From a virus, in IMG/VR virus record IMGVR_UViG_3300021962_000824, positions 1 to 20,376 of that record: a stretch of 20,376 nt of DNA; one strand, 5' to 3'. The notes under the pieces are model-generated. The model worked only from the letters and a program-made list of their open reading frames with translations. It made no database searches and was not told the DNA's origin. A program made the position numbers and the translations under genes. How positions within the stretch are numbered: position 1 is the first letter of the stretch; the number at the start of each line of letters is the position of its first letter. Shown piece by piece: positions 5,318 to 19,262 of the stretch.

Positions 5318-5325
5318 TATAAATA
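5318..5325 (+). promoter_or_regulatory. T4-type late promoter (TATAAATA)
   Basis: An exact TATAAATA octamer starts 1 nt after the preceding stop codon and about 94 nt before the next ATG at 5419. In T4 this sequence alone, read by gp55 with the gp33/gp45 coactivators, defines a late promoter. The late-type genes that follow support the call. A strong sigma-70 promoter lies downstream in the same gap, so this gene cluster may be transcribed in two phases. Confidence 0.65.
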
Positions 5326-5340
5326 GTATCGTAAGTTGTT

Positions 5341-5373
5341 GATTTTACTTATGGATTTGAGTGGATTTTACTT
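5341..5373 (+). repeat. 10-bp direct repeat GATTTTACTT upstream of a promoter
   Basis: GATTTTACTT occurs at 5341-5350 and again at 5364-5373, 23 bp start to start, a little over two helical turns. The second copy runs into the TTGACA -35 box (5372-5377). The layout is that of a tandem operator or activator site. A related ATTTTAC element sits at the same distance from the -35 of the uvsX promoter. Confidence 0.5.
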
Positions 5374-5400
5374 GACAATGTGTGCGATATATGATATAAT
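5372..5400 (+). promoter_or_regulatory. Consensus sigma-70 promoter with extended -10
   Basis: TTGACA (5372-5377), a 17-nt spacer and TATAAT (5395-5400), with TGA directly before the -10, make a full-consensus extended -10 promoter. The start should fall near 5407, about 12 nt before the ATG at 5419, with GGGAG at 5410-5414 as ribosome-binding site on a very short leader. It would drive the following cluster with host polymerase early in infection, alongside the late octamer at 5318. Confidence 0.85.
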
Positions 5401-5418: not shown

Positions 5419-6642
5419 ATGTATAGTTTTAAACAGTTTTTTATTGAAGCTAGGAATACACACCTAGAACATTTAGAGGACGAAATCATTAATAACGGTT
5501 ACGAAGGTGGCCTAAACGCAGTAGAATTTCTTAAATCATTAAGAAATATGCTGTCTGGCTCATCACGTTCTAAAGTTAATGTTTCTGTCAAATGGGATGG
5601 TGCACCAGCAGTAATCTGTGGTATTAATCCTGAGAACGGCAAATTTTTTGTTGGTTCTAAATCCGTATTTAACGTAACTCCCAAAATCAATTACACACAA
5701 TCAGATATAAGACGTAACCACGATGGTGGTCTTGCGGATAAACTATCCGTATGTCTAAAAGAATTACCAAAACTTAATATACAAGGTATTGTACAAGGCG
5801 ACTTGTTATTTACTCCAGGTGATATTAAGTCGGTAACTATACGAGGTGAAAATGCTATTGCATTTACTCCTAATACAATAACTTACGCAGTCCCAGAAAA
5901 TACTGAACTTGCAAAAAGAATACAACGAGCAAAATTAGGCATTATCTTCCACACAACTTACACAGGTAAAAAAATGTCTGATCTTAAAGCAAGTTTTGGC
6001 GTCAATGTAAATCGTTTTACAAAGACGCCATCAGTATTTTTTGATGACGCAAGTTACAAAGACGCTTCAGGAGTAGCAACGTTTTCATCAGCAGAAAGTG
6101 ACCAATATGATTCATTATTAAGAATGGCATTAGGATCTATATCTAAAGGTAAAAGAATTTTAAATTTACTACAAAGACAAACTAATTTATTATCCGTAGG
6201 TGCAAGATTAAAAATATTCTTTAATGATTATATTAGAAAAGGCCAAGAGATATCTAATGTTAACAAATTATTAAATGATTTTAAAAAGTATTATGCTTCA
6301 GTTTTAGATGATGAAATGTCTAGTAAAAAAACTGATAGTGCAAAAAGAAAATACGAACAAATAAGAAACGAAGGATTAAGATTTATAGATTCTTATTCAG
6401 ATGAAATATATTTTGCAATTGCAAGTTATGTTACATTACAAAGAGTTAAAAACTTTTTAGTAAACAAAATGAATCAAATTAAATCAATAGGAACTTTTTT
6501 ACAAAAAGATAATGGATTTGAAGTAACAAATCCAGAAGGTTATGTTGCTGTAGATAGAATGGGCAACGCAGTTAAATTAGTAGATAGATTAGAGTTTAGT
6601 ACCGCAAACTTTACTTTAGCAAAAAATTGGATTAAAGGATAA
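5419..6642 (+). CDS. Ligase/nucleotidyltransferase-fold-like protein with capsid-targeting-like N-terminus
   Basis: A 407-residue protein with signs of the covalent nucleotidyltransferase (DNA/RNA ligase and capping enzyme) superfamily. KWDG at 58-61 resembles motif I (KxDG, with K58 as the nucleotide-accepting lysine). GDLLF at 127-131 resembles motif III, EGYVAV at 373-378 resembles motif IV, and VKLVDR at 385-390 resembles motif V. The gap between the third and fourth matches is long (about 240 residues) and helical, so if the fold is right it carries a large insertion. The N-terminus MYSFKQFFIE-A matches the pattern of T4 internal-protein targeting sequences, with cleavage expected after E10. 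The ATG at 5419 has GGGAG just upstream. An inactive ligase-like virion protein is equally possible, because motif matches are partial. Confidence 0.6.
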   Translation: MYSFKQFFIEARNTHLEHLEDEIINNGYEGGLNAVEFLKSLRNMLSGSSRSKVNVSVKWDGAPAVICGINPENGKFFVGSKSVFNVTPKINYTQSDIRRNHDGGLADKLSVCLKELPKLNIQGIVQGDLLFTPGDIKSVTIRGENAIAFTPNTITYAVPENTELAKRIQRAKLGIIFHTTYTGKKMSDLKASFGVNVNRFTKTPSVFFDDASYKDASGVATFSSAESDQYDSLLRMALGSISKGKRILNLLQRQTNLLSVGARLKIFFNDYIRKGQEISNVNKLLNDFKKYYASVLDDEMSSKKTDSAKRKYEQIRNEGLRFIDSYSDEIYFAIASYVTLQRVKNFLVNKMNQIKSIGTFLQKDNGFEVTNPEGYVAVDRMGNAVKLVDRLEFSTANFTLAKNWIKG

Positions 6643-7943
6643 TGGCACAATTTAGAACAGATAGAAACATATTAAGACCACAGGACGTTACAAATTATGA
6701 AGTCCAAATGTTGGGAGAAAGACTTACTCCTTCTGGTACTTTAACGGATGCCTTTGGACGATTAAGAATTTCTGAACCATTTACTTTATTTGATAGTGTC
6801 CATAGGTATGAAGAAAATGATAAGTGGTCAACTTCAACAACAGGTACAGCTTCATCTACACATTTACCAAACGAAAGTTGTATGAGAATGGACGTTGGCG
6901 ATCAAGCAAATGATGAAATTGTAAGAGAAACAAAAAGAGTATTTACTTATCAGCCAGGTAAATCATTATTAATAATGAATACTTTTGTTTTTGCTACACC
7001 AGTTGCTGGATTAAGACAAAGAATTGGTTACTTTGGTGCTCAAAATGGAATATTTTTAGAACAAGATGGTACTACATTATATCTGGTTAAAAGAAGTTAT
7101 GTAACAGGTTCAGTTGTAGATACAAGAGTAGCACAAGCAAATTGGAATTTTGACAAATTTGATGGAACAGGTTACGCTCATTCAGTAGATGGTCCAGAAC
7201 ACGCAGAAGGACTTGATGTAACAAAATCAAATATCTTTTGGATAGATGTAGAATGGTTAGGTGTAGGTGATGTAAGATGTGGATTTGTAGTAGATGGTAA
7301 AATGTATATTGCTCATATTTTTCACCACGATAATATAAACACAGGTCCTTATATGACTACGGCTACATTACCAATTAGAGCAGAATTAAAAGTAACTTCT
7401 TCTATAAATGATAGTACAACTCACTCAATGAAACAAATTTGTAGTACGGTTATAAGTGAAGGTGGATATCAACAAGTACAAAAAGAATTATTTGCTCGTA
7501 GAACTTCAGCACTAGGAAGTATCGGAACAACATTTTTACCTTTAGTTTCTATGAGATTAAAGTCAAGTAGATTGGACGCTGTAGTTATACCAAGTAGGAT
7601 AAATGCTTTAGGTATTGCTGCTACAGGTACAAGTAACTATGAGTTTGCTTTAATTAAAAATGGTACATTAGGTGGTTCGCCAAGTTGGGCTTCTAATTCT
7701 GATAGTATTGAAATAGATACAGCCGCTTCATCAATTACAGGTGGAACAATTATTAATAGTTTCTTTTCAGTATCTACCAATCAATCAGGACAAAATATTT
7801 CTGAAGCACAACAATACAATTTAGATTTACAATTAGGTAGAACTTTAGCAGGTGTAAGTGATATTTACACTCTTTGTGCTAGAACCTTATCTGGAACTAA
7901 TAGTGCCATTGGTAGTATTGGTTATTATGAGATAAGAGGATAA
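6642..7943 (+). CDS. Virion structural protein, probably appendage or fibre type
   Basis: A 433-residue protein, strand-rich and full of G, S, T and N, with almost no long helices; this composition is typical of phage fibre, baseplate-decoration or head-decoration proteins. The stretch after residue 35 (DAFGRLRISEPFTLFDSVHRY) is of a type I associate with structural proteins of marine T4-like phages. The C-terminal third (SITGGTIINSFFSVSTNQSG onward) reads as repetitive beta structure. It starts directly at the upstream stop (TAATG overlap) and ends 1 nt before the adenylate kinase gene, so it is translated from the same message. It has no capsid-targeting-like motif, which suggests an exterior location. 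The exact role is not readable from sequence. Confidence 0.65.
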   Translation: MAQFRTDRNILRPQDVTNYEVQMLGERLTPSGTLTDAFGRLRISEPFTLFDSVHRYEENDKWSTSTTGTASSTHLPNESCMRMDVGDQANDEIVRETKRVFTYQPGKSLLIMNTFVFATPVAGLRQRIGYFGAQNGIFLEQDGTTLYLVKRSYVTGSVVDTRVAQANWNFDKFDGTGYAHSVDGPEHAEGLDVTKSNIFWIDVEWLGVGDVRCGFVVDGKMYIAHIFHHDNINTGPYMTTATLPIRAELKVTSSINDSTTHSMKQICSTVISEGGYQQVQKELFARRTSALGSIGTTFLPLVSMRLKSSRLDAVVIPSRINALGIAATGTSNYEFALIKNGTLGGSPSWASNSDSIEIDTAASSITGGTIINSFFSVSTNQSGQNISEAQQYNLDLQLGRTLAGVSDIYTLCARTLSGTNSAIGSIGYYEIRG

Positions 7944-7944
7944 T

Positions 7945-8529
7945 ATGAAAACATTTTTAAATTTTTTAAAAGAAGCTGAAACAAAAAGAATTATAATGAT
8001 AGGTGGACCTGGTTCGGGTAAATCAACCTATTCAGAAATTATAACTAAGAAGTTAGGTATACCTCATATCTACACAGGTGATATGATGAGGAAATTAGCA
8101 CAACAAGATACACCAGACGGTCGTAAAGTAAAAGAGTTATTATCTAAAGGTGAGTTTGCACCACTAGACATTGTGATTAAAGCTGTGAAAGATAGAGTTT
8201 CACAATCAGACGCAAAAAATGGATATGTGTTTGATGGTTTTCCTCGTAATGTTATTCAAGCAAATAAAATGAAAGAAGAAGGTATTGGTTATGATTATGT
8301 AATTAATTTACAAGTATCGGAAGAAGAAGTAATACGAAGATTATCAGCAAGAGGAAGAGCAGATGATAAACCAGAGATTATTAAAAATAGAATTAAAGTA
8401 TATCATAGAGAAACTGCTCCATTATTAGATTACTTTAAGAATGAAATTATTAACATAAAAGCAGAAGGTGGAACACCTGAAAGTATTGCAAACGAAATTA
8501 TTAAAAAGGTAGAAAATGAAAGTAAATAG
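7945..8529 (+). CDS. Adenylate kinase-like enzyme with capsid-targeting-like N-terminus
   Basis: Nucleoside monophosphate kinase of the adenylate kinase family (ATP + AMP to 2 ADP). P-loop GGPGSGKST is at 20-28, TGDMMR at 44-49 (NMP-binding helix), the hallmark FDGFPRN at 96-102, and the arginine-rich LSARGRADDKPE at 133-144. Only a few residues lie where long adenylate kinases have a LID domain, so this is the short type. The first ten residues, MKTFLNFLKE, followed by A11 closely match the capsid-targeting sequences of T4 internal proteins and contain a prohead-protease-type site (L8-x-E10|A11). The enzyme core would begin right after that cut. Its 3' end overlaps the next gene by 14 nt. 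A head-packaged adenylate kinase is the inference; plain cytoplasmic nucleotide metabolism is the alternative. Confidence 0.88.
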   Translation: MKTFLNFLKEAETKRIIMIGGPGSGKSTYSEIITKKLGIPHIYTGDMMRKLAQQDTPDGRKVKELLSKGEFAPLDIVIKAVKDRVSQSDAKNGYVFDGFPRNVIQANKMKEEGIGYDYVINLQVSEEEVIRRLSARGRADDKPEIIKNRIKVYHRETAPLLDYFKNEIINIKAEGGTPESIANEIIKKVENESK

Positions 8530-9202
8530 TTTTCAACAACACTTAGCAGAAGGTTTATACGATCCAGGTATATTCAAAGCATTCTTTTTAGCAGGTGGGC
8601 CAGGTTCTGGTAAATCGTTTGTAGCACAATCTGTATTTGCAGGTTCAGGATTAAAAGTAGTAAACTCCGATAGTGCTTTTGAACGAGGATTAAAAAAGGC
8701 AAATTTATCTTTATCTATGCCAGATGAAGAAGAATACTTTAGAGATATTATAAGAAAACGTGCTAAAGCAACCGCCATTACACAATTAAATAATTACGTT
8801 GATGGTAGATTAGGATTAGTGTTAGACGCAACGGGAAGAGATTACGATATTATACAAAGACAACATAATATGCTACAACAATTAGGATATGATTGTTATA
8901 TGATCTTTGTAAACACAAGTTTAGATGTAGCACTTGAAAGACAAAAACGTAGAGAAAGACAAGTGCCAGAATATATTACTAAAAAAAGTTGGGAAACAGT
9001 ACAAAGTAATATTGGAATGTTTCAACGATTGTTTGGTATGGAAAACTTTATTGTAGTAGATAATAATAAGTCAGATGTAGAGTTAGTTACATTGACTATG
9101 GCTAAAATAAATAAAATAGTAAGAAAACTTATAAACTTTCCTGTGAAAAGTTATATTGCAAAAAGATGGATGGTTAAGGAAAGACAGGCAAAACAAAGAT
9201 GA
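8516..9202 (+). CDS. P-loop kinase (zeta-toxin/polynucleotide-kinase-like) with capsid-targeting-like N-terminus
   Basis: A 228-residue P-loop phosphotransferase. Walker A GGPGSGKS is at 27-34, a VVNSD segment at 48-52, a strand ending in LVLDATG at 101-107 (Walker B-like or substrate aspartate) and IFVNTSLDVALERQKRRERQ at 130-149, which resembles the lid helix of zeta-toxin and polynucleotide-kinase-type enzymes. The substrate cannot be told from sequence: a nucleotide, a polynucleotide end or a sugar are all possible. The N-terminus (SFQQHLAE then G13) carries the same targeting-like motif as the preceding kinase, with L10-x-E12|G13 as the protease-type site. The C-terminal 40 residues are basic. 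It overlaps its neighbours at both ends (14 nt and 4 nt), indicating coupled translation with the adenylate kinase and the large nucleotidyltransferase. Confidence 0.78.
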   Translation: MKVNSFQQHLAEGLYDPGIFKAFFLAGGPGSGKSFVAQSVFAGSGLKVVNSDSAFERGLKKANLSLSMPDEEEYFRDIIRKRAKATAITQLNNYVDGRLGLVLDATGRDYDIIQRQHNMLQQLGYDCYMIFVNTSLDVALERQKRRERQVPEYITKKSWETVQSNIGMFQRLFGMENFIVVDNNKSDVELVTLTMAKINKIVRKLINFPVKSYIAKRWMVKERQAKQR

Positions 9203-12153
9203 GATTTAAAGAGTTTTTAAAAGAGTCTATTATAGACGTACCTAGAAAAAATTACGCAGTAATTTTCGACAATGCTGATACTGATAGTCCTAAACTAAAA
9301 GAAAAAGTTAGACAGCAAGTATTAGATGGTATTAAACAATTTGAAAAATTTGGAAAAATAGTTAAGTATGGAATGATTGGTTCTATATTAACTAAACAAT
9401 ATAGAAAAGACGCAGACCTTGACATTAATATTTTATTTGATCTTCCAGGTTCTAAAGAAGAACAAGAAGTATTACATAAAAAAATTAGAGAGTTTCAAGG
9501 TACAGTTAATGGTGAAAAGATACCAGGAACTGAACACGTTATCAACTATTTTTCTATCATAGATCCTGCTACATATAGTAAGGCAAACGAAATGGCAGAT
9601 GGTGTTTTTGATTTGAATAAAAATACATTTATCAAAAAACCAAAACCATTAAAGTTTGAACCAGAAACATACGTAGCGGATTTTCAGCGTAAAGTTGCTG
9701 AAATAGATGTTGTTAAAGGTGAACTTGTAAGAGATATGATTGATTATGAGGAACTAAAAGAATTAAATCCAAAAGATATTGAGGGTTTAAATAAATTAGT
9801 TTCAGATAAGTTAGATGAAATTAAATCTGCTATTAACACTCTAATTGATATTGGTGACAAAACTACACAAGAACGTAAAGACGCTTTTGTAAAAGATATG
9901 TCGCCAGACGAAATCAGAAAGTTTGGTGTTAAAAATAAATTGCCAAAAAATGTAATTTATAAAATGTTAGAAAAGTATCATTATCTCACCTTTTTTAAAC
10001 ATTTGAAAGACATTATGGCAGATGGTAAAATAACACCAGCCGAACTGAAATCATTATCAAAAATAAAAGAAGCCAAAGGTAGACATATAGCGTTTACCTT
10101 TGGCCGATTTAATCCACCAACTATTGGCCACGAAAAATTATTAGACCGATTATCGTCTGTACGAGCAGATGAGTATTATGTATTTTTAAGTAGATCGGAA
10201 GACTCAGATAAGAATCCTCTATCATATAGAAACAAAGTTGCTATAATGAAAAAGATGTTTCCTAGATATGCTAGAAACATTGTAGTCAGTCCTTCTAATA
10301 GAGTGTTTGACATTGTAGTTGATTTGTACAATAAAGGTGCAAGTGAAGTAACGATGGTAGTTGGTTCAGATAGAGTAAGAGAATTTGATACATTATTAAA
10401 ACAATACAATGATATAAAATCCAGACACGGATATTATAACTTTGATAACATTAATATTGTATCTGCTGGCGAAAGAGATCCAGACGCTGAAGGTGCAGCT
10501 GGAATGTCAGCAAGTAAAATGCGAGCTGCGGCAGCAAAAGATGACTTTGCAACTTTCATTAAAGGATTACCAGGACGATTTGCTAAATCAAAAGACGCTG
10601 AAGATTTATTTAAATACGTAAGACAAGGTATGAGATTAGTGGCAGATGTAAATGTGGATGCTGGTGCAGGTGCATTACGCTTTAAACCTTTCATCACAGC
10701 TTCTACAAAAGAAGAATTAGATAAGATGACTTTAAGGGACAAATATATTTCAGAACACCTATATGAAGTCGGAGATATTGTAGATGATGTGGACAATGGA
10801 ATAACAGGAGTGATTATAAGACGAGGAACAAACTATGTTACTTTAGAAGATGTTAATATGAAGTTTCATAGAGCGTGGTTATATAACATTATGGAAACAC
10901 CTGTATATCCAATTGAATTAGAAGAACGAGCAAGACAGCTCAAATATGACAAAGAAACGGATCAACCTAAAAAATACGTTGCTGGATTATCTGATAAAGA
11001 GAAAAAGGCACACGATAGACATTTAGAAAAACAAGGCAAAAAGTCAGATAGTGATCCTAGTGCTTATACACAATCACCTGCTGACAAAGTTGCACAAACT
11101 AAACCAAGTAAGTATACCAAGAGATTTAAACAAATGTATGGCGAATTAAATGTAAATAAAGAAGCCGTAGATATAGGCCACGATTGGGCTATGCAAAATG
11201 CAAAAATGACCCCAGGCGAACCTCAATATGATCCGAAGTATCAAGGAACTACTTACAAACCAAGTAAATCTGAAGATAATTTAAAACAGGTTTCTGGAAA
11301 GATGATAACAAGTATGATTAAACCAGTTGAATTAAAAGATATAGAGGAATGGGTAACTAGCAATATTACCATAGATAAATATAAGGGAAGATATGGTAAT
11401 GAATGGGAAAGTAAGTTACAAGAAACTTACGAAAAAATGGTCAATAAAGTTATTGACACAAATGATAATATAATTGAAAGTAGATTTAAAGAGTTTGCTA
11501 GAGATTTTAAAACATTAAACAATGAACAATTTGAAAGTAAACATAACAAATCTAAAGAAGAAATTAGAAAAGAGATTGGAGAACATATGCAAGTGAAATC
11601 ATTTAAATCATTTTGCATTAATCAATCTTTAACTGAAGAAGTTACTAAAGCAATTAACTATCATTTAGAAAAGAAAGTTCCTATTTCAGAAAATATTTTT
11701 AGAGTACACTCACAAGCTTTTTATGAGTTCTATAATGTATTAAGAGAAAAAGTACAAAAAGAAAACATAGAGTTAAATGAGGAAGATAAAAGAATTTTAG
11801 AAACAGATATTGGATTATTTGGAGAATATCTAGGAGATCCAGTACCGTTAGACTGCCCAATGGTAGATGAGGAAGATGAAAAAGATCCTCCGATTGGTAA
11901 ACCAAAAAGAGGCGGTCCTAAAAAGTTTTATGTGTATGTGAAAAAACCAGATGGTGGAATTAAAAAAGTCACTTGGGGTGATACTACAGGATTATCAGTT
12001 AAGTTAAATGATCCTGAAGCAAGAAAATCTTTTGCTGCTAGACACAAATGTGATCAGCAGAAAGATAGAACAAGTGCTGCATATTGGGCGTGTAATACTC
12101 CAAGATATGCAAAAGCATTAGGATTATCTGGCGGAGGTAATTTTTTCTGGTAA
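9199..12153 (+). CDS. 984-aa multidomain nucleotidyltransferase polyprotein with capsid-targeting-like N-terminus
   Basis: A large mosaic protein. Residues 1-10 (MRFKEFLKE then S10) look like a T4-type capsid-targeting sequence. Residues about 15-140 resemble a polymerase-beta-type nucleotidyltransferase (GS at 61-62, metal-binding DxD at 73 and 75). Residues about 295-475 are a HIGH-type nucleotidylyltransferase: FGRFNPPTIGH at 301-311 (TxGH signature), VVGSDR at 387-392, and MSASKMR at 436-442 in place of ISSTxxR. NMN adenylyltransferase or cytidylyltransferase activity is the likely class. Residues 590-650 are a lysine/serine-rich linker. Residues 797-890 contain a targeting-like KSFKSF followed by a helical domain. 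Residues 900-984 form a small GGPKKFYVYVK and ARKSFAARHKCD domain ending in NFFW. Protease-type sites also occur at IKE|A (289-292) and IIE|S (758-761). Domain limits are approximate. Confidence 0.8.
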   Translation: MRFKEFLKESIIDVPRKNYAVIFDNADTDSPKLKEKVRQQVLDGIKQFEKFGKIVKYGMIGSILTKQYRKDADLDINILFDLPGSKEEQEVLHKKIREFQGTVNGEKIPGTEHVINYFSIIDPATYSKANEMADGVFDLNKNTFIKKPKPLKFEPETYVADFQRKVAEIDVVKGELVRDMIDYEELKELNPKDIEGLNKLVSDKLDEIKSAINTLIDIGDKTTQERKDAFVKDMSPDEIRKFGVKNKLPKNVIYKMLEKYHYLTFFKHLKDIMADGKITPAELKSLSKIKEAKGRHIAFTFGRFNPPTIGHEKLLDRLSSVRADEYYVFLSRSEDSDKNPLSYRNKVAIMKKMFPRYARNIVVSPSNRVFDIVVDLYNKGASEVTMVVGSDRVREFDTLLKQYNDIKSRHGYYNFDNINIVSAGERDPDAEGAAGMSASKMRAAAAKDDFATFIKGLPGRFAKSKDAEDLFKYVRQGMRLVADVNVDAGAGALRFKPFITASTKEELDKMTLRDKYISEHLYEVGDIVDDVDNGITGVIIRRGTNYVTLEDVNMKFHRAWLYNIMETPVYPIELEERARQLKYDKETDQPKKYVAGLSDKEKKAHDRHLEKQGKKSDSDPSAYTQSPADKVAQTKPSKYTKRFKQMYGELNVNKEAVDIGHDWAMQNAKMTPGEPQYDPKYQGTTYKPSKSEDNLKQVSGKMITSMIKPVELKDIEEWVTSNITIDKYKGRYGNEWESKLQETYEKMVNKVIDTNDNIIESRFKEFARDFKTLNNEQFESKHNKSKEEIRKEIGEHMQVKSFKSFCINQSLTEEVTKAINYHLEKKVPISENIFRVHSQAFYEFYNVLREKVQKENIELNEEDKRILETDIGLFGEYLGDPVPLDCPMVDEEDEKDPPIGKPKRGGPKKFYVYVKKPDGGIKKVTWGDTTGLSVKLNDPEARKSFAARHKCDQQKDRTSAAYWACNTPRYAKALGLSGGGNFFW

Positions 12154-12422
12154 TGAACCCATATAAAGATACACAACAAGACGGCTACTTTATAAGAGAG
12201 TTTAATGAAAGTAGTGCAGATGAAGAATTTGTTTGGCATAGAGATCGTGCAAATAGAACGATAGTTGCCAAAGAAGGTGAAGAATGGTTTATACAAATGG
12301 ATAATAAAATGCCAGAAGTAATTGAAATAGATAAACCTTTTACAATTAAAGAGGGAGTATTCCATAGAATACTAAAAGGCAAAGGAACTTTAAAATTGGA
12401 GATAAAAGAAACAAATGAGTAA
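12153..12422 (+). CDS. Small cupin-like protein, 89 aa
   Basis: A compact, strand-rich protein whose pattern fits a single cupin barrel: FVWHRDRANRTIVAKEGEEW, then WFIQMDNKMPEVIEIDKPFTI, then the return strand EGVFHRILKGKGTLKLEI. The histidines in WHRD (H29) and FHR (H71) are the likely metal ligands, though the classical cupin motif 1 (HxH with E) is not complete. Such small cupins occur in marine phages without known substrate. A weak targeting-like FIREFNE-S is at residues 13-20. It starts in a TAATG overlap with the polyprotein stop and overlaps the next start by 8 nt (ATGAGTAA), so expression is coupled both ways. Binding or isomerase roles are possible; nothing in the sequence decides. 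Confidence 0.65.
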   Translation: MNPYKDTQQDGYFIREFNESSADEEFVWHRDRANRTIVAKEGEEWFIQMDNKMPEVIEIDKPFTIKEGVFHRILKGKGTLKLEIKETNE

Positions 12423-12426
12423 ATAT
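12408..12426 (+). repeat. 19-bp repeat around start codon, copy 1
   Basis: GAAACAAATGAGTAAATAT spans the ATG (12415) of the coiled-coil gene and recurs exactly at 13738-13756 around the next gene's ATG. Both copies encode MSKY. It may be a duplicated translation-initiation region. It also contains TAAATA, part of the late-promoter octamer. Confidence 0.7.
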
Positions 12427-13734
12427 AGAACAAGTTGGTCAGAAATTTTAAAACAGGTCAATGAGGCACAATCTCATACTGTTAGATATACAGATCCATT
12501 AAACAAAAAAAGATTTGCAGTACCATTTAAAACTCACGCTGATGCTGAAAAGAAAATGGCACAATTAAAAAAAGATGGTGTTAAAGATATAGAAATTACA
12601 ATGGACACTTTAAAACCTGGTGTTAATTTTAAAGAAGCATATGAAAAAGACCACGAAGTTTCAATGGCAAGAACAGATTTACAATCTATTGCTGATAAGG
12701 CATTAGTTATTGACCAACATTTAAAAGAACATCATACTGAAGAAACAGGTATTGAAGGTTGGATTGCAAGTAAGATTACAAAAGCTTCAGATTACATTAA
12801 TGCTGTACACGACCATATGATTTATAGTCCAGAAATGAATGAACAATCTAAAGAACCATACGGTTGGACATTAGTTTCAAAAGCAAAAGACCTTGCTAAA
12901 AAGTTTGCAGGCAATATGACAAAAGCATATGATGAAATAGAAAAACTAGCAAAAGATTTAAGTAAGAATGACGAAGTGCAAAAAGCACTACGACAATATA
13001 ATGAAGAATTAAAAGAAGAAATCAGTCCTGTTCAAATTAAAAAATTAAAAGATACTTGGGCAGATTTAAAAACTATACCATTTGATAAAGTAAAACCATT
13101 AAGAAACTTTTTAGACAAATATTCTACTGATAGTCTAATGCAACTTGCACAAGCAAATATTAATTTTGTATCTAATATGGCACGAAGTGTTATGAATAAA
13201 AGAAAATTCAATGATCCAAAACACGCAGGTTCTATGAAAGAAGGTGCTGCTGAAGATATGGAAAGAATTTCTAAATTAAGAACAAGACAAATGATGTTAC
13301 AAACTCAATTAAATAAAATGGACAAAGCAGATCCTAAAAATAAAACGAAGGCTGCAATTGTTAAAAGTGATATAGAGAATATTCAATTACGAATGGATGA
13401 TATTAAACAACGTCAAAAATATAAAGTAGAACAATTATTAAATAAAATTAAAACTGAAGATACCGAACCTGCAAGGCCAGGACCTTCAAATCCTAATCCA
13501 AATAGTATCAATGAAAAAATTCAAGGATTAGAAAACAAATCTGAAAAATCAGGTATACCTTATGGTATTCTGAAACAAGTTTACGATAGAGGAATGGCTG
13601 CGTGGAAAGGTGGTCATAGACCAGGTACTACTCCACAACAATGGGCATTTGCTAGAGTAAATTCATTTATAACAAAAGGTAAAACATATAGTACGGCTGA
13701 CGCTGATTTAGCGAAACAAGCTCGTAAAAACTAA
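12415..13734 (+). CDS. Coiled-coil phage protein with C-terminal small conserved domain, 439 aa
   Basis: A mostly helical, highly charged protein of unknown function, probably a head-internal or virion component. A targeting-like start (SWSEILKQVNE-A, residues 7-18) precedes a short strand region (HTVRYTDPLNKKRFAVPF). Residues 84-142 look like a helical hairpin (IEGWIASKITKASDYINAVHD). Residues 150-265 and 278-345 are long amphipathic helices of coiled-coil type; the second begins at MKE|GA (274-278), a protease-like site. After a Pro/Asn linker, the last 65 residues (SGIPYGILKQVYDRGMAAWK, then GHRPGTTPQQWAFARVNSFI) form a compact domain I recall from other phage proteins (DUF5824-like, from memory). 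The region around its ATG is repeated exactly at the start of the next gene. Confidence 0.75.
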   Translation: MSKYRTSWSEILKQVNEAQSHTVRYTDPLNKKRFAVPFKTHADAEKKMAQLKKDGVKDIEITMDTLKPGVNFKEAYEKDHEVSMARTDLQSIADKALVIDQHLKEHHTEETGIEGWIASKITKASDYINAVHDHMIYSPEMNEQSKEPYGWTLVSKAKDLAKKFAGNMTKAYDEIEKLAKDLSKNDEVQKALRQYNEELKEEISPVQIKKLKDTWADLKTIPFDKVKPLRNFLDKYSTDSLMQLAQANINFVSNMARSVMNKRKFNDPKHAGSMKEGAAEDMERISKLRTRQMMLQTQLNKMDKADPKNKTKAAIVKSDIENIQLRMDDIKQRQKYKVEQLLNKIKTEDTEPARPGPSNPNPNSINEKIQGLENKSEKSGIPYGILKQVYDRGMAAWKGGHRPGTTPQQWAFARVNSFITKGKTYSTADADLAKQARKN

Positions 13735-13737
13735 GGA

Positions 13738-13756
13738 GAAACAAATGAGTAAATAT
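13738..13756 (+). repeat. 19-bp repeat around start codon, copy 2
   Basis: Exact second copy of the 19-bp sequence at 12408-12426, around the ATG at 13745. Upstream it adds a better ribosome-binding site (AAGGAG at 13733-13738) than copy 1 has. The shared start suggests that the two adjacent genes arose by partial duplication or exchange of their 5' ends. Confidence 0.7.
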
Positions 13757-14683
13757 TTGGAAACAAAAAAAGGCAGCTTGGAAGAAAAGATTACTCGTAT
13801 CGCTACTGAGCAAGCCACAATTAAAAGAAAAGAACCAAAAATTCAATTAAAAGCAAAATCTTATTTTGATGTCAAAGAAGGATCACTAGCACAAATTGCT
13901 GCCAAAGTTGTTAGTGAACAAACTGACTATCAAGCTAAGTTTAAAGCAGAATTAGAAAAAACTGGTAAATCTATCAATCAAATGTCAGACGCAGAAAAGA
14001 AAGCGTTTTTTGATAAAATAGATAGAGAGTACAAAGCAAAAAATGAACAAGCAACTGCTAAAGAAGTAGATAAATTTCATACATCTTTAGATAAACTTGT
14101 ACACAAATCTTTTGGTAAAAGTTCAGATGAAAAAAATGAAACACATACTTTTACAACTGATGTAACTAATCAAAAACAAAAAGATACAAAAGGTGAAAAA
14201 GATATTATCAATCCTATTAAAGAAGGAAAGATGAAAGATATTGCTACAGATAAAGCAGAATTAAAAAGATTGTCTGTAAGACTTTCACAATTAAGAGATA
14301 GAAAAGCTGCTGATACAGGTGATACATCTAAATTAGAAAGAGAAATTTTACAAACTCAAAGATCAATTAAAGATGTACAATTAAAATTAAAAGATGTACC
14401 AAAAGAAGTTAAAGGTGAAGCAGTTAATCCTTATGCAGTAGGTATGGCCGCTGCTATGAAACAAACTGGAGATAAACCACCTTTAGAAAAATCTACTATT
14501 ACCAAAGCACACGATATTGCTAAGTCGATAGAAAAAAGTCAAAAAGAGGAAGAAGATCCTAAACAAAAAACTTATTATGAATTGAGAAAAAATATTAGAG
14601 CTCAAGTTGAAAAAGGAAAACTTACAATGACAGGTCAAAAACCTGCCGTTGTGGATGTTGCACCAAGAAAAGAAATAATATAG
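13745..14683 (+). CDS. Lysine-rich coiled-coil phage protein with internal repeats, 312 aa
   Basis: A helical, very lysine- and glutamate-rich protein, probably virion or core associated. An approximate repeat begins it: YLETKKGSLEEKI (4-16) and YFDVKEGSLAQIA (40-52), a pattern I recall from marine phage structural proteins, usually several times per protein. A disordered middle section (about 95-155) is followed by a coiled-coil hairpin (about 165-220) that starts just after an IKE|G prohead-protease-type site (158-161). A segment AVGMAAAMKQTGDKPPLEKS (231-250) and the following helix look like another reused phage module. The preceding gene has the same plan, a K-E-G site then a coiled coil, and the same start. 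The function is unknown; a scaffold-core or internal-head role fits the composition. Confidence 0.75.
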   Translation: MSKYLETKKGSLEEKITRIATEQATIKRKEPKIQLKAKSYFDVKEGSLAQIAAKVVSEQTDYQAKFKAELEKTGKSINQMSDAEKKAFFDKIDREYKAKNEQATAKEVDKFHTSLDKLVHKSFGKSSDEKNETHTFTTDVTNQKQKDTKGEKDIINPIKEGKMKDIATDKAELKRLSVRLSQLRDRKAADTGDTSKLEREILQTQRSIKDVQLKLKDVPKEVKGEAVNPYAVGMAAAMKQTGDKPPLEKSTITKAHDIAKSIEKSQKEEEDPKQKTYYELRKNIRAQVEKGKLTMTGQKPAVVDVAPRKEII

Positions 14684-14701
14684 TCTAGGAGGACGTACAC
14701 T

Positions 14702-15190
14702 ATGTTGCCTAGAATATATTGTGATATGGATGGCGTCCTTTGTGATTTTAAATCCGCAGCAGAAAAAGTAACAGGTCAAAAAATAGATAGGTGGATGTTT
14801 TCTGATAAAAAAGAAAAATGGGAACCTATCAAAGAAACACCTAGATTTTGGCATACTCTACCTTGGCAACCAGGTGGAAAACAGTTGTGGAATTTCATAG
14901 AAAAATATAAACCTCATATACTATCAGCTTACGTAGAAGAAAGTTTTGATCCTAATTGTATACCTGGTAAATCATATTGGGCAAGAACGAATTTAGGTAT
15001 AGGTAATAACAGAATTAATCTTGTTAAAAGAGTTCAAAAACAAAACTTTGCAAAAGTAGCAGGTAATCCTGCAATTCTTATAGACGATTACGAGAAGAAT
15101 ATAAGACAATTCCAAGAACGTGGCGGTATAGGAATACATCACACCTCAACACCTAGAACAATCGCAGAATTGAAAAAACTAGGTTTCTAA
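14702..15190 (+). CDS. HAD-family 5'(3')-deoxyribonucleotidase-like phosphatase
   Basis: A 162-residue haloacid-dehalogenase-fold phosphatase, most like the 5'(3')-deoxyribonucleotidase (NT5C) group. Motif I DMDGV is at 8-12, with D8 as nucleophile and D10 as acid/base. Motif II is the serine in HILSAY (S75), K118 is a candidate motif III lysine, and motif IV is ILIDDYEKN with D128 and D129 binding magnesium. The short cap inserted after motif I, rich in W and P (PRFWHTLPWQPGG), is typical of the nucleotidase type. It probably dephosphorylates nucleoside monophosphates from host DNA breakdown or balances phage dNTP pools. It has a strong TAGGAGG ribosome-binding site about 10 nt before the ATG and lacks the capsid-targeting-like start, so it should act in the cytoplasm. 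Confidence 0.85.
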   Translation: MLPRIYCDMDGVLCDFKSAAEKVTGQKIDRWMFSDKKEKWEPIKETPRFWHTLPWQPGGKQLWNFIEKYKPHILSAYVEESFDPNCIPGKSYWARTNLGIGNNRINLVKRVQKQNFAKVAGNPAILIDDYEKNIRQFQERGGIGIHHTSTPRTIAELKKLGF

Positions 15191-15201
15191 TCACTATTTC
15201 T

Positions 15202-15209
15202 TATAAATA
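15202..15209 (+). promoter_or_regulatory. T4-type late promoter (TATAAATA)
   Basis: An exact TATAAATA octamer in the 74-nt gap before the ATG at 15265. Transcription should begin near 15215, giving a leader of about 50 nt with a strong AAGGGAGAG ribosome-binding site. The downstream gene looks like a small virion protein, which suits a strong late promoter. The gap contains no other recognisable element. Confidence 0.75.
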
Positions 15210-15264
15210 TTATCATTACATAAAGAATTGAGTACCTAATACAATTAAGAAGGGAGAGAATACT

Positions 15265-15579
15265 ATGTCAAGTCATAAAGCAACAGACGCTTATGATAGC
15301 GCACCTTTATGGGCACTATTACAAGTTAAAAAGGCACCAACATTAGCAAATATGGGGCCAATTGATTCAGCAGCGGTTACATTATTATATGAAAACGCAG
15401 AAGCTGACGATTTTATTACTAACGCAACTGTAGGATTATTTAACTATAAAGACTCAGAAACGCAAAGTGGTAAGATTGCACATACAGGATGGGTTTTAAA
15501 GACTACTGGCAAATCTAGCTCAGGTAGAGATGGAAGAGTACAGTACGAAACATTAGTTTGCTTAACTAGCAATCTATAA
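15265..15579 (+). CDS. Small virion structural protein, 104 aa
   Basis: A short beta-rich protein of a type I associate with virion proteins of T4-like marine phages: an N-terminal KATDAYDSAPLWALLQVKK-type opening, then small-residue strands (VTLLYENAEADDFITNATVGLF) and the HTGWVLKTTG and DGRVQYETLVCLTS endings. It stands alone behind an exact late promoter, with a strong ribosome-binding site and a stable hairpin directly after its stop. That is the arrangement expected for an abundantly made capsid or decoration protein. Its residues favour codons with slightly higher GC than the AT-rich neighbours, also consistent with high expression; I judged this by eye only. The position in the particle is not known. 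Confidence 0.7.
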   Translation: MSSHKATDAYDSAPLWALLQVKKAPTLANMGPIDSAAVTLLYENAEADDFITNATVGLFNYKDSETQSGKIAHTGWVLKTTGKSSSGRDGRVQYETLVCLTSNL

Positions 15580-15587
15580 TGATTATA

Positions 15588-15607
15588 GGGGTGCCTTCGG
15601 GCACCCT
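15588..15607 (+). terminator. C(TTCG)G hairpin, mRNA 3'-end stabiliser or terminator
   Basis: GGGTGCC (15589-15595), TTCG loop (15596-15599) and GGCACCC (15600-15606) form a perfect 7-bp GC-rich stem closed by a C-G pair, extendable by one G-T pair. C(UUCG)G loops are exceptionally stable and were first noticed as recurring intergenic hairpins in T4 mRNAs. It begins 8 nt after the stop codon. No run of T follows, so it may protect the 3' end of the mRNA rather than terminate transcription. Confidence 0.85.
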
Positions 15608-15615
15608 ACTAAATA
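15608..15615 (+). promoter_or_regulatory. Possible late promoter (ACTAAATA)
   Basis: ACTAAATA directly follows the TTCG hairpin and contains CTAAATA, a form of the T4 late octamer I recall from T4-like cyanophages. Transcription would begin near 15621 and produce a leader of about 60 nt containing two more inverted repeats before the ATG at 15684. Confidence 0.5.
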
Positions 15616-15629
15616 TATTAACAAAGTGA

Positions 15630-15667
15630 TCTAGGAATATACCTAGAGTAGCATTCCCCATAAGGGG
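15630..15667 (+). promoter_or_regulatory. Two small hairpins in the leader of the 153-aa structural gene
   Basis: TCTAGG (15630-15635) and CCTAGA (15642-15647) form a perfect 6-bp inverted repeat with a 6-nt loop. CCCC (15656-15659) and GGGG (15664-15667) form a 4-bp stem with an ATAA loop, followed by TTTATAGGAG that carries the ribosome-binding site. Together they could structure the 5' leader, protect it from nucleases or tune translation. Confidence 0.5.
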
Positions 15668-15683
15668 TTTATAGGAGAAAAAA

Positions 15684-16145
15684 ATGGCAGATAAAAAAAT
15701 AACTGCGTTAACTGATTTAGGTAACGCACTCGCCGCTGGCGATTTATTTCACGTAGTTGACGATCCGTCAGGTACACCAATCAATAAAAAAGTAACAGCA
15801 GAGGATGTGTTTAATAACATACCTTCTTGGTTAGGATTAGCACAAACATCACAATCTTTAACTTCAGATGGTTCTACTACTTTAGTAGCAAACGTAACTT
15901 CAGCGATTACTGAAATTGTGGGTACTGCTGGTACAGCAACTATCACTTTAGCAGACGGTTCAGATGGACAAGTTAAAACATTTATCAATGTGGCTACATC
16001 TGGAACATACGCACAAACTATTACACCTTCAAATTTAAGAGGTTATACAAGTGTGATATTAAATGCTCAAGGTGAAACAGTAACTTTATTATTTAAAAAT
16101 TCAAAATGGAATATTATTGCAGGTCAAGGTTACACTACCGCATAA
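15684..16145 (+). CDS. Virion structural protein, 153 aa (fibre-like N-terminus)
   Basis: The N-terminal 50 residues (ITALTDLGNALAAGDLFHVV, DDPSGTPINKKVTAEDVFNNI) are of a type I recall at the start of fibre, appendage or decoration proteins in marine T4-like phages, where it probably docks to the particle. The remaining 100 residues are rich in S, T, G and A and read as beta strands (TSDGSTTLVANVTSAITEIV, ATITLADGSDGQVKTFINVA), ending in TLLFKNSKWNIIAGQGYTT. This closing pattern fits a small beta-sandwich or trimeric head domain. It has its own possible late promoter, a structured leader and a GGAG ribosome-binding site, so it is probably abundant. Whether it is head or tail associated cannot be read from sequence. 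Confidence 0.7.
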   Translation: MADKKITALTDLGNALAAGDLFHVVDDPSGTPINKKVTAEDVFNNIPSWLGLAQTSQSLTSDGSTTLVANVTSAITEIVGTAGTATITLADGSDGQVKTFINVATSGTYAQTITPSNLRGYTSVILNAQGETVTLLFKNSKWNIIAGQGYTTA

Positions 16146-16160
16146 TATTAAGGAGATATA

Positions 16161-16418
16161 ATGACTATAACGATTGAAACTTTGAAAGAAGAACGTGAAG
16201 TATTAAAAAAAGATTTTGACACATTGAGTGCCAGAATTGCTCAAGTAGAAAAAGATTTGGGCACAATGAAAAGTAATTTGAATGCTGTATTTGGTGCAAT
16301 TCAACAAGTAGATAGATTGATGACCAAAGCAGATCCAAAAGACGAAAAACAATTATTATTAGAAAAACAAAAGATGTCTGCTGAAAAACAACAGGCATTA
16401 AATTTGGCAACAAGTTAA
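16161..16418 (+). CDS. Coiled-coil protein, 85 aa
   Basis: A short, almost wholly helical protein with clear heptad character (IETLKEEREVLKKDFDTLSA, RIAQVEKDLGTMKSNLNAVF) followed by a second helix rich in K, E and Q. This suggests a two-helix coiled coil that oligomerises, perhaps as a small virion or assembly component. The start ATG at 16161 has a strong AAGGAGATATA ribosome-binding site just upstream. It follows the 153-aa structural gene by 15 nt, so it is probably on the same late message. No family assignment is possible. Confidence 0.75.
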   Translation: MTITIETLKEEREVLKKDFDTLSARIAQVEKDLGTMKSNLNAVFGAIQQVDRLMTKADPKDEKQLLLEKQKMSAEKQQALNLATS

Positions 16419-16419
16419 T

Positions 16420-16596
16420 ATGGCTGAAGATAAAGAAATGCAAAAGTTCATAGAGGCGTTAAAGAACAATACGCCTAACTCTGGGCAATTTGATAAAGTA
16501 AAGACTAACGAAGTAAAAGACTTTGAAGAAGATTTATTCGGAGGCAAGTCTTTTAAAGAAGTAAGAAAAACTTTAAAAAAGGAGAATACAAAATGA
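16420..16596 (+). CDS. Small charged protein, 58 aa
   Basis: A 58-codon frame from ATG 16420 to TGA 16594-16596. It starts 1 nt after the preceding stop and shares an ATGA overlap with the next gene. The peptide is acidic in the middle (EVKDFEEDLF) and contains KSFKEVRKTLKKE at the C-terminus, which resembles the K-S-F-K-E part of the targeting-like motif but lacks the cleavage site. It is probably helical at both ends. The tight packing between two other coupled genes supports it as real. Function unknown. Confidence 0.7.
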   Translation: MAEDKEMQKFIEALKNNTPNSGQFDKVKTNEVKDFEEDLFGGKSFKEVRKTLKKENTK

Positions 16597-16718
16597 GTTG
16601 CAAATCTTGTGAACACGATTGCCATTGTGAAAACGATTGTTCCAATGGTATTTGTGAATGTAATGATTGTAAATGCGATAACGCAGAAATAAAAGAGGAG
16701 AAAAATGAAAACGTTTAG
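16593..16718 (+). CDS. Metallothionein-like cysteine-rich mini-protein, 41 aa
   Basis: Nine cysteines (positions 3, 6, 10, 12, 16, 21, 23, 26 and 28) and two histidines (8 and 11) crowd the first 28 of 41 residues, arranged as CxxC, CxC, CxC, CxxC and CxC. This density and the CxC/CxxC spacing are those of metal-thiolate cluster proteins (metallothioneins) binding zinc, copper or cadmium. The tail is lysine/glutamate-rich. The frame runs ATG 16593 to TAG 16716-16718, with GGAG (16581-16584) upstream and an ATGA overlap with the previous gene. It overlaps the next start by 14 nt, which itself uses the GAGGAG inside this gene. A zinc-ribbon or redox peptide is the alternative. It shows no homology I can name. 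Confidence 0.7.
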   Translation: MSCKSCEHDCHCENDCSNGICECNDCKCDNAEIKEEKNENV

Positions 16719-17142
16719 ACAACATTTAAAAGAGGGGAAGTATATGGGTGGTCAAGTAGGCTCTCCAACCGCAGATTCTGTGGAAGATAGCTCTATTGGT
16801 ATTCACAATATACATATTCCTGCTGTGTTGGAAAGACTTAATGCGTTTGTTGGTTCCATAGGCGACCAAGAATACATTAGACCTCAACACGCAATAGATT
16901 CTTTAAAAGAAAAATTAGGCAGAATCGGAATCACTTTCAAAAACGAACCAGTAATTGAAGGTAAATCAGGAACTGCTGAAACTGGATTGACGCAATTCGG
17001 TGGCCGTTTTGGTAAAGACATTGATGGCTCTGATATTAATGATGATGGTATTACTCATAGATTAGGTAAAGAGTTAAAAATTAAATTTCAATACGAAACA
17101 TTAAAAAACGGTGCTGCCAGAGTTTACGCTCAGCTCGTTTAG
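16705..17142 (+). CDS. Phage protein with capsid-targeting-like N-terminus, 145 aa
   Basis: Begins MKTFRQHLKE then G11, one of the best matches in the window to the T4 internal-protein targeting sequence, with an L8-x-E10|G11 prohead-protease site. After a flexible glycine/serine part, a helical segment (AVLERLNAFVGSIGDQEYI, then RPQHAIDSLKEKLGRIGI) is followed by strands near the C-terminus (LKIKFQYETL, ARVYAQLV). DGSDINDDGI near 109-118 is rich in Asp and Asn and could be a metal-binding turn. I recall similar proteins in marine T4-like phages but no function. The ATG at 16705 lies inside the preceding mini-gene and uses its GAGGAG as ribosome-binding site. Confidence 0.75.
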   Translation: MKTFRQHLKEGKYMGGQVGSPTADSVEDSSIGIHNIHIPAVLERLNAFVGSIGDQEYIRPQHAIDSLKEKLGRIGITFKNEPVIEGKSGTAETGLTQFGGRFGKDIDGSDINDDGITHRLGKELKIKFQYETLKNGAARVYAQLV

Positions 17143-17144
17143 TA

Positions 17145-17507
17145 ATGTTTAGAAAAATAACACGTGATAATTGGCAGATGTATGCCATCAAAAATTATGA
17201 TGTTCCTAATTTAGATTCTGAACAAGAATTTTATGAGGACATAAAACGCTTTAAGTATTTAAAACGTTTGTTTAGAAAATACAAAGCGACAGGTGAATTA
17301 AAAACTAGATTGATTGTAAATCATATTATAGTTTTACAGAATGTTTTTGGTGTAGAAGCTGCTTGTACGTTGTTGTTTTTTAGAATTGAAAAAGAATTTT
17401 GGTCTATACTAAAGACTTTTTTAGTATATCTAAAATATGTAGAAGAACACGAAATAGTTGATGTAAAAATTGATACACAACTACTTAACAATTTGGAAAA
17501 AATATAA
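17145..17507 (+). CDS. Conserved-looking hypothetical protein, 120 aa
   Basis: A helical protein with a basic aromatic N-terminal half (WQMYAIKNYDVPNLDSEQEF, then FKYLKRLFRKYK) and a hydrophobic helix pair (LIVNHIIVLQNVFGVEAACT and FWSILKTFLVYLKYVEEH) that is more likely a buried core than a membrane anchor. It starts 2 nt after the upstream stop and shares a TAATG overlap with the next gene. This pair occurs, as I recall, next to each other in T4-like marine phages, with the partner described as virion-associated. No catalytic motif is seen and no function can be assigned. Confidence 0.7.
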   Translation: MFRKITRDNWQMYAIKNYDVPNLDSEQEFYEDIKRFKYLKRLFRKYKATGELKTRLIVNHIIVLQNVFGVEAACTLLFFRIEKEFWSILKTFLVYLKYVEEHEIVDVKIDTQLLNNLEKI

Positions 17508-18097
17508 TGGGAAGAGCAATAGATTTATTAATTACATATAGAGTTATCAAAATGCTGATAACACCTTTTGAGCAACAAGACGCTTACAAGTATGGCATTA
17601 TTGATAAAGATGGTAAAGTATTAAGAAAAGCAAAAGATTTAAAAACTGCTGAAGAAAAAGATTCTTATACTCTATTACATAGATTTGTTTTTAATTTGAA
17701 AAGATTAATAAACATCATACCAGGAGGTAAATCAAAATTAGGCACATATGCGGCCGCATTAGGTTTACTTTTAAAAGAACAAAGACATTTGAACGCAATA
17801 GAGATTGAAAGAGTTTTATATAAACATCTTGTAGATAATAATTTAATTGCATTTAATAGTGAGATTAAAGAGTCAGCAAAATTTAATTATTTACCTAAAG
17901 GTAGATATACAATATTAGAAGATTTGAGAGATTTAGAAAATAATCCTAGTGCTGAAACAGGAGATATTGTAACTGTTCCAGTGGATACAAAACCTTTTGA
18001 TAACTATTTTGGTGTTAATCTTTATAATGTAATGAATGAAGATACACAAAAACAAATTATAGTATCGGAAGACAATATAGAAAGAATTAGATTTTAA
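17507..18097 (+). CDS. Putative virion-associated phage protein, 196 aa
   Basis: A mixed helical protein with the distinctive segments AYKYGIIDKDGKVLRKAKDL and SYTLLHRFVFNLKRLINIIP, followed by GGKSKLGTYAAALGLLLKEQ, of a type I recall in virion-associated proteins of marine T4-like phages. There is no membrane segment, and no targeting-like motif at the start (MGRAIDLLITYRVIKMLITP is an amphipathic helix). The C-terminal third is acidic. It is coupled on both sides by TAATG overlaps with genes of similar type. Head-tail connector or neck accessory roles are possible given the position, but this is a guess. Confidence 0.7.
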   Translation: MGRAIDLLITYRVIKMLITPFEQQDAYKYGIIDKDGKVLRKAKDLKTAEEKDSYTLLHRFVFNLKRLINIIPGGKSKLGTYAAALGLLLKEQRHLNAIEIERVLYKHLVDNNLIAFNSEIKESAKFNYLPKGRYTILEDLRDLENNPSAETGDIVTVPVDTKPFDNYFGVNLYNVMNEDTQKQIIVSEDNIERIRF

Positions 18098-18621
18098 TGA
18101 AATCTTTTAAAAGTTTTAGAGAAGCTTGTTGGCAAGGATATCAACAAGTAGGATTTAAAATTAAAAGTGGTAAAAGAGTTCCTAATTGTGTGCCTGAAGA
18201 AGGTACATTAGAAGTACAAAAAGAAGAAACTCCTACAAATACTGCTGGAGGAGGACAAATTGCAGGTATAGGAGTTGGGCCTGCTGGTGAGCCTGGGGTT
18301 ACTAAATCAGCTGCAGACAAATATAAGAAAAAAAATAAAGAAGATATAATAGGCAGAATGACAAAATTTTTGTCAAAAGAACAATACAATAAATTAGAAG
18401 TTGAAAATATCATAAACAAGATTAATAATAATAAAGAAGTTTATGAAAATCAAATAGAACCTATTGTGAAATTTTTAAAAAGAAAACAAGAAAAACAAAC
18501 TTATAATGAAGAAATAGGTATTAAATCTTTTAGATATGTGGTAGATCAACAAATGAAAAATATTGTTTCAGAGGAATTTAGAAACGAAATAGCAAATCAA
18601 CTATTAAAAAAATACCTATGA
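18097..18621 (+). CDS. Modular phage protein with targeting-like start and ACWxGY motif, 174 aa
   Basis: Starts MKSFKSFREA, a capsid-targeting-like N-terminus (cut expected after E9, though F replaces L/I at the third position). It is followed by ACWQGYQQVGFKIKSGKRVP and NCVPEE, a two-cysteine module I recall at the start or middle of many marine phage proteins. A glycine-rich linker (about 50-70) leads to a helical C-terminal part rich in K, E and N, where KSFRYVVDQQMKNIVSEEF is at 142-160. This modular build is shared with the next gene. Function unknown; virion-internal or virion-associated is the most likely location. It overlaps the next gene in ATGA. Confidence 0.7.
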   Translation: MKSFKSFREACWQGYQQVGFKIKSGKRVPNCVPEEGTLEVQKEETPTNTAGGGQIAGIGVGPAGEPGVTKSAADKYKKKNKEDIIGRMTKFLSKEQYNKLEVENIINKINNNKEVYENQIEPIVKFLKRKQEKQTYNEEIGIKSFRYVVDQQMKNIVSEEFRNEIANQLLKKYL

Positions 18622-19262
18622 AAGAACAATGGACAGACAAATATAAGAGATCAATAGATTGTGATAATCCAAAAGGTTTTTCACAAAGAGCTCATTGTCA
18701 AGGTAAAAAGAAATCATTTAAAGAGTTCAAAGAAAGTATTGCCAACTATTCAATTGGTCCAATAGACATCTACAAACCAATGTCATCTATGAATACAAAA
18801 ACTTTAAACAATACAGCATTAGGCCCAGGACTAGGAACATATAGTCCCGCTGATTCTATGGTAACTAAAAAAGAAAATCTTACTCCATTTAAAAAGAAAG
18901 TTATACAGAAATTAAAACAACCAGTTTCAGATTATTTAAAAAAGAAACAAACAAACGAAGATATTACTAAAGATGATATTAAAAATTTTGTGGATAAAAC
19001 AAAAATAAAAGCAACTAGATGGTTTAAAGATGTTGTTGATAAAATAAAAAGAATTGCTACTACTTCAAAACGATATGAATATGCTGCTAAAGTATTACAA
19101 GATGTTATTGATAGAAAAGAAATAGAAAGAGCAAGAATGGGATTACCATTAAGACACGATATAGGTTATTATGCCGCTGTTGTTGCAGATACTTTCCACG
19201 ACATTGATCCAAAAAAATTAGTTAAGATGGTGCACGAAAGTATTAATCAGAAAGGAAAATAA
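18618..19262 (+). CDS. Modular phage protein with GFSQRAHC motif, 214 aa
   Basis: The N-terminus holds a short two-cysteine motif, SIDCDNPKGFSQRAHCQG (12-29), which I recall as a recurring module in marine phage proteins. A targeting-like KSFKEFKE then S40 follows at 32-40, so a prohead-protease-type cut there would release the N-terminal module. The rest is helical, with basic stretches (KVIQKLKQPVSDYLKKKQ, then TRWFKDVVDKIKRIA) and a C-terminal block ending in RHDIGYYAAVVADTFHDIDP (178-197). That block has His and Asp residues in a helical context but no recognisable active site. It is coupled to its upstream neighbour by ATGA, and the next gene starts directly after its stop. Confidence 0.7.
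   Translation: MKEQWTDKYKRSIDCDNPKGFSQRAHCQGKKKSFKEFKESIANYSIGPIDIYKPMSSMNTKTLNNTALGPGLGTYSPADSMVTKKENLTPFKKKVIQKLKQPVSDYLKKKQTNEDITKDDIKNFVDKTKIKATRWFKDVVDKIKRIATTSKRYEYAAKVLQDVIDRKEIERARMGLPLRHDIGYYAAVVADTFHDIDPKKLVKMVHESINQKGK

Follow-up and report, generated by a model that had tools for sequence, protein, structure and literature searches.

The 20,376-bp window analysed here, which is the entire virus record IMGVR_UViG_3300021962_000824, raises the question of why several of its genes, encoding different products, open with nearly the same short peptide. The record covers part of the genome of a marine T4-like phage, and its genes run in the order UvsX-like recombinase, DnaB-like helicase, DUF6267 protein, kinase, cytidylyltransferase and small late genes. 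This order is shared with Pelagibacter phage HTVC008M (Kyanoviridae), the closest isolate, whose DUF6267 protein is 53% identical, and on syntenic gene order and core genes the phage belongs with the Kyanoviridae-type T4-like marine phages. A 165,693-bp contig with an 86% identical DUF6267 protein, examined in pieces, served as a near relative for comparison. An earlier sequence-only reading had likened the shared start to the capsid-targeting sequence (CTS) of T4 internal head proteins and proposed that enzymes are packed in the head. For five genes this proposal passed the available tests, and we consider it highly probable that at least five products of the cluster bear an N-terminal capsid-targeting propeptide of the T4 internal-protein type, which loads enzymes into the head.

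We searched the first 35 residues of the 26 window genes with the strict motif F..[FHY][LIMF].E; in S-SZBM1 and HTVC008M a looser form (pattern B) matched many internal starts that were spurious, and the strict form alone was therefore used. Five of the 26 genes carry it, all on the plus strand and with tags of 9-12 residues: those encoding the DUF6267 protein (tag at 5419..5448, MYSFKQFFIE↓A, the arrow marking the predicted cut), an adenylate kinase (7945..7974, MKTFLNFLKE↓A), a P-loop kinase (8516..8551, MKVNSFQQHLAE↓G), a nucleotidyltransferase/cytidylyltransferase protein (9199..9225, MRFKEFLKE↓S) and a small protein without known function (16705..16734, MKTFRQHLKE↓G). No internal match was present over 5,304 positions of the window proteins, and when the N-termini were shuffled, a check that had been proposed together with the motif, the mean was 0.06 and none of 5,000 shuffles reached five. 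In the near relative, the strict motif starts 5 of 463 open reading frames (ORFs), which are precisely the five orthologues, at 149-160 kb. By Pfam and PHROG the five families are distinct, so that the tag occurs on unrelated proteins of the same phage. The pattern search fixes F and E by construction; both are conserved independently in the adenylate kinase family (tag in 42 of 47 distinct relatives) and in the 16705 family (28 of 29), where M1 and E10 are invariant across 26 homologues. All eight N-termini listed by the sequence-only reading were confirmed as read and in place, and its claim that eight genes are tagged stood for these five, became plausible only for the gene at 12415, and fell for those at 18097 and 18618.

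The T4 prohead protease gp21 cuts after L/I-x-E (PMC9026906), and T4 IPIII is annotated as a precursor peptide MKTYQEFIAE (-10 to -1) followed by the mature protein from A. The P-loop kinase family follows the proposed cut rule at a constant junction, even though its leaders range in length between 6 and 14 residues (MKVNSFIQHLAE↓G, MKTFEQIRYLQE↓G, MKSFEQILSE↓G, MKNLKEIREFIKE↓G). E occupies position -1 and L or I position -3 in every one of the 70 distinct leaders, with variable residues at -2 and from -4 to -8. Such a constant protease site, preceded by leaders of different lengths, is what would be expected of a removable propeptide. The 9199 family likewise has E at -1 in 49 of 49 distinct relatives, with I, F, L or V at -3; the junction pattern of the adenylate kinases was conditioned on E and was excluded as evidence. 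In the major capsid proteins of these phages, the propeptide likewise has close to its end a cut-like sequence of the same kind (FLSE↓AAPT, ILTE↓AAPT, LLTE↓APT). Untagged DUF6267 homologues start exactly at the junction (S-SZBM1_141, MA↓KNTHLEHLED; L245, M↓KNTHLEHLED), next to tagged counterparts that read MKTFAEFLTE↓DKNTHLEHLED and MYSFKQFFIE↓ARNTHLEHLED. The gp21-like protease that the proposal called for was found as Peptidase_S77 (PF03420) in HTVC008M, in S-CREM2 and, of four long metagenomic relatives, in three (G001, G002, G004). Of 12 long contigs bearing the tag, 9 encode the family, against none of five long contigs in which the match was spurious or a control.

The description of the motif as a portable address tag was borne out beyond the window. 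When viral contigs were scanned with a DNA pattern encoding MKTFxxF[L/F]xE, at least 120 stretches matched, and among the matches listed 108 of 124 were gene-start-like; these 108 ORFs fell into at least 52 clusters without detectable mutual homology, and in 70 of them the residue after E was A, S or G. A control pattern of the same codons, permuted, matched 29 stretches in all, of which 10 were start-like, mostly one repeated ORF. Some of the tagged clusters fall into Pfam families: S-adenosylmethionine (SAM) lyase, cytidylyltransferase, AAA_33/zeta-type kinase, DUF6267, GNAT, methyltransferase and a zinc protease.

Evidence that tagged proteins reach virions comes from relatives, namely the cyanomyoviruses S-CREM2 and S-SZBM1 (its cytidylyltransferase). 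In S-CREM2, 52 proteins were identified by mass spectrometry of CsCl-purified virions (PMC10665884). Tagged among them are the SAM lyase gp6 (MKDFDSFLEE), the 'Cas9-like' gp12 (...FASFMAE↓A), gp13 (MKDLHSFLTE), the kinase gp14 (VKRFDAFLTE), gp136 (MQTFSMFFSE) and the cytidylyltransferase gp154 (MKNFSSFLTE↓A). The strict pattern, composed after the S-CREM2 N-termini had been seen, matched 5 of the 28 non-structural proteins in the virion and 1 of the 167 proteins absent from it (p=2.4e-4). Because of that order of events, a profile trained on metagenomic relatives only is the fairer test: the five S-CREM2 proteins that it ranked highest, out of 219, all occur in the virion and include the capsid protein itself, and for non-structural virion proteins it gave an area under the curve of 0.64 (p=0.007). 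The sole enzyme on the S-SZBM1 virion list, a cytidylyltransferase, starts MRFRQFIIE↓A, and this family is present in virions of S-CREM2, S-SZBM1 and S-SM1. The S-CRM01 kinase starts MISFDQFLSE↓K and has been reported in virions (as cited in PMC10665884). As a separate observation, gp12 of S-CREM2 (L004:7704-10313), annotated as Cas9-like, has no Pfam match and matches phrog_3561; its tag follows a conserved leader, MSxSRWxRW, which is also present in S-N03, MA01, S-H34, S-B68 and S-CRM01.

How closely does the marine tag resemble known systems? In T4, IPI, IPII, IPIII and Alt carry a 10-residue peptide that can be set beside that of the window (MKTYQEFIAE↓A versus MKTFLNFLKE↓A), with the same L/I-x-E rule and a gp21-type protease. 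Residues 4 and 7 of the T4 CTS are required for targeting and residues 8 and 10 for processing (PMC9026906), and these are the residues conserved in the marine tags. The five window genes fit the description of an N-terminal peptide of 10-19 residues with F or Y at position 4 and F at position 7. T4 IPI-III inhibit Type IV restriction enzymes (PMC12373910), whereas the marine cargo consists largely of enzymes; the marine leaders also differ in spanning 6-14 residues, and some marine loci are tagged without a cut site. The virion NMNAT/cytidylyltransferases and kinases of the cyanomyoviruses S-CREM2, S-SZBM1, S-SCSM1 and S-CRM01 (PMC10665884, PMC9146016, PMC9602691) belong to the same families or genomic cluster, and were tagged where checked (S-CREM2, S-SZBM1, S-CRM01). 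Their authors proposed no targeting mechanism, which the tag provides. Ejection proteins of phiKZ-like giant phages are similarly packed in the head, with a propeptide cut after E by a gp21-related protease, but at an S/A-x-E motif; the passages of PMC9026906 consulted do not describe a short portable N-terminal tag on small enzymes in these phages. The SAM lyase family (PF23780) includes S-CREM2 gp6 and tagged metagenomic ORFs; what sets these members apart is the capsid tag and the presence in the S-CREM2 virion, and no member is encoded in the window. Tagged SAM lyases (MKTFKEFLDE↓SSLSR...) are widespread in marine contigs, at L201:2672-3181 and 11 further loci, and it is possible that they act as injected anti-restriction proteins.

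By every testable feature, the marine tag qualifies as a T4-type CTS. The CTS itself is already known: T-even internal-protein genes were previously found through its signal (cited in PMC12373910), and it has been suggested in review as a general loading device (PMC9026906). What appears to be new is that marine T4-like phages use it, on enzymes and over dozens of protein families; a literature search that did not cover subscription papers found no description of this.

Several observations weigh against capsid loading. PF03420 was not found in the window, a 20-kb fragment too short to hold gp21. HTVC008M has no strict tag, only degenerate forms, some of its homologues retaining L/I-x-E (MIPFILKE↓G, MYNDLLVE↓D). 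Of three tagged proteins in S-SZBM1, only the cytidylyltransferase was detected in virions; the two others, both small, were not, and neither was the phage's DUF6267 protein, which is untagged there. One large DUF6267 clade starts MFSFKGFxTKx (e.g., MFSFKGFITKG), keeping FSFKGF and losing the L-x-E cut site, and because of this loss the DUF6267 protein of that clade may be uncut or unpackaged. Since it keeps the aromatic half, the clade also speaks for a different role of the peptide, as a docking helix for another structure (tail or neck, baseplate hub, or a cytoplasmic phage complex) instead of a cleaved core-targeting peptide. However, the invariant feature of the tags is the L/I-x-E protease site at a fixed junction behind a variable leader, which a docking helix would not need, the major capsid proteins share the cut motif, and long contigs with the tag tend to encode the gp21 family as well; we therefore regard a docking role as unlikely.

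The cyanomyovirus virion papers consider such enzymes as either passengers or contaminants without deciding between the two (PMC10665884, PMC9146016, PMC9602691), and the S-CREM2 authors stated that their non-structural virion proteins could be contamination (PMC10665884), a further point against loading that the S-SCSM1 authors raised as well. If the tagged proteins were abundant cytoplasmic contaminants, their N-terminal likeness would reflect shared ancestry or chance. Yet the S-CREM2 DNA polymerase, primase and recombinase, which are expected contaminants, are not on the virion list, and the tagged proteins are unrelated in sequence and over-represented among virion proteins; with chance ruled out by the shuffles and control patterns, this explanation is very improbable. 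Nor does the nucleotide sequence appear to be the conserved element. A position nearly always at the start codon would suit an mRNA or translation-initiation element, but synonymous codons differ at every fixed tag position, indicating selection on the peptide and not on the nucleotide sequence, leader length varies, and the S-CREM2 gp12 family bears the tag ~15-25 residues into the protein, so that such an element is scarcely credible. The capsid-targeting propeptide is supported by the protease in relatives, the L/I-x-E junction, the untagged homologues that start there, the portability of the tag and the tagged virion proteins of S-CREM2. Homology gives good support for the packaging of the products encoded in the window; for the phage of the window, we infer cleavage and packaging, and also injection and a benefit to the phage.

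The predicted cargo of the window consists of one protein without known function and four enzymes or enzyme-like proteins. The DUF6267 protein (5419..6642, plus strand, 407 aa; PF19782, E=3e-129) has orthologues starting MYSFKQYLNE↓A in at least 20 relatives. In its AlphaFold model (predicted local distance difference test score, pLDDT, of 85 overall), confidence is good except at both ends, and residues 1-14, which include the tag, score below 50 and are disordered. Its invariant residues KxDG, QGD, PEG and K-x-V resemble polynucleotide ligase motifs I, III, IV and V and suggest a ligase- or nucleotidyltransferase-like protein. As sequence and fold searches of the PDB gave no significant match, with DNA/RNA ligases and capping enzymes the commonest sensible weak fold hits, we keep the ligase assignment as a suggestion. 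The adenylate kinase (7945..8529, plus strand, 194 aa; PF00406, E=3e-43) corresponds to E. coli Adk with 13 additional N-terminal residues, query residue 15 aligning with residue 2 of 1ake in phmmer. It is followed on the same strand by the P-loop kinase (8516..9202; AAA_33, zeta or polynucleotide-kinase-like; PF13671, E=5e-14; phrog_2071, phrog_505) and by a 984-aa protein with NTP_transf_2 and cytidylyltransferase/NMNAT-like domains (9199..12153; PF01909, PF01467; phrog_395, E=2e-68). The 145-aa protein at 16705..17142 (plus strand) has no Pfam match and represents a widespread tagged family; its structure model was too poor to use (pLDDT 59).

Packaging requires late expression, and the label of a late cluster, given to these genes from the first, is supported by a T4-type late promoter (TATAAATA, 5318..5325, plus strand; octamer [CT]ATAAATA) ahead of the first tagged gene. 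Of 59 relatives, which are not independent samples, 58 have the octamer at most 150 nt ahead of the DUF6267 gene, at a nearly constant distance and against ~3 expected. Across the whole window it is not enriched (5 found, 8 expected); it carries weight only at the conserved position ahead of 5419. A sigma-70 promoter (TTGACA-N17-TATAAT, 5372..5400, plus strand) is present in 32 of the 59 relatives, with 0.02 expected, and suggests early synthesis in addition to late. The segment 5318-5400 thus holds a late and a consensus sigma-70 promoter in tandem, the former in nearly all relatives and the latter in about half.

Of the other genes read as tagged, the one at 12415 has a tentative leader of a possible second type (MSKYRTSWSEILKQVNE, 12415..12465, plus strand). 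Many of its relatives keep [LVM]-x-E ahead of the conserved body, yet the leader differs (MSRYRxTMxE...); it is plausible from this arrangement that the protein carries a targeting leader. The form MSRYRxTMxE...[LVM]xE, seen in the gene at 12415-13734 and in gp132 of HTVC008M (MTRYTKTMAEAYREVNE↓D), may represent a second class of targeting peptide. The gene at 18097 is not supported as tagged, with the tag in none of 31 distinct relatives (MFGEMKKDLQDACW...). In the protein at 18618, SFKEFKES lies at residues 33-40 and is internal rather than N-terminal; one relative does begin MKTFKEFIEE↓SWSQKYKKSIDC. An untagged HAD-like 5'-nucleotidase-type protein (IYCDMDGVLCDF, 14702-15190) sits among the tagged genes.

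We propose that, in a propeptide of ~9-12 residues, the basic/aromatic half K-x-F-x-x-F/H would bind the prohead core and the L/I-x-E↓A/G/S half would be cut by the phage's gp21-type prohead protease. The cargo (adenylate kinase, P-loop kinase, nucleotidyl/cytidylyltransferase, the ligase-like DUF6267 protein and the small 16705 protein) would be synthesised late and recruited to the prohead core; the protease would release it as the head matures, and it would stay in the head with the DNA, probably to be ejected along with the genome. At the first moment of infection it would supply nucleotide and nicotinamide adenine dinucleotide (NAD) metabolism, nucleic-acid repair or defence evasion. Whether this extends to a modular payload system general in marine T4-like phages, in which one removable tag recruits a changeable set of enzymes into the capsid (nucleotide and NAD metabolism, nucleic-acid end repair, SAM destruction, protein kinases), we judge to be an even chance. 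The tag offers a mechanism for a recurring puzzle, the cyanophage virion enzymes otherwise called possible passengers or contaminants, and a sequence rule with which injected proteins could be predicted in thousands of uncultured phages; it may double as a cargo-loading signal in non-T4 phages. If the proposal is correct, tagged SAM lyases, kinases, nucleotidyltransferases and adenylate kinase would be delivered before transcription, with a bearing on restriction and early-acting defences, and were the system general, a ready-made counter-defence and take-over kit would arrive with the genome before any phage gene is transcribed.

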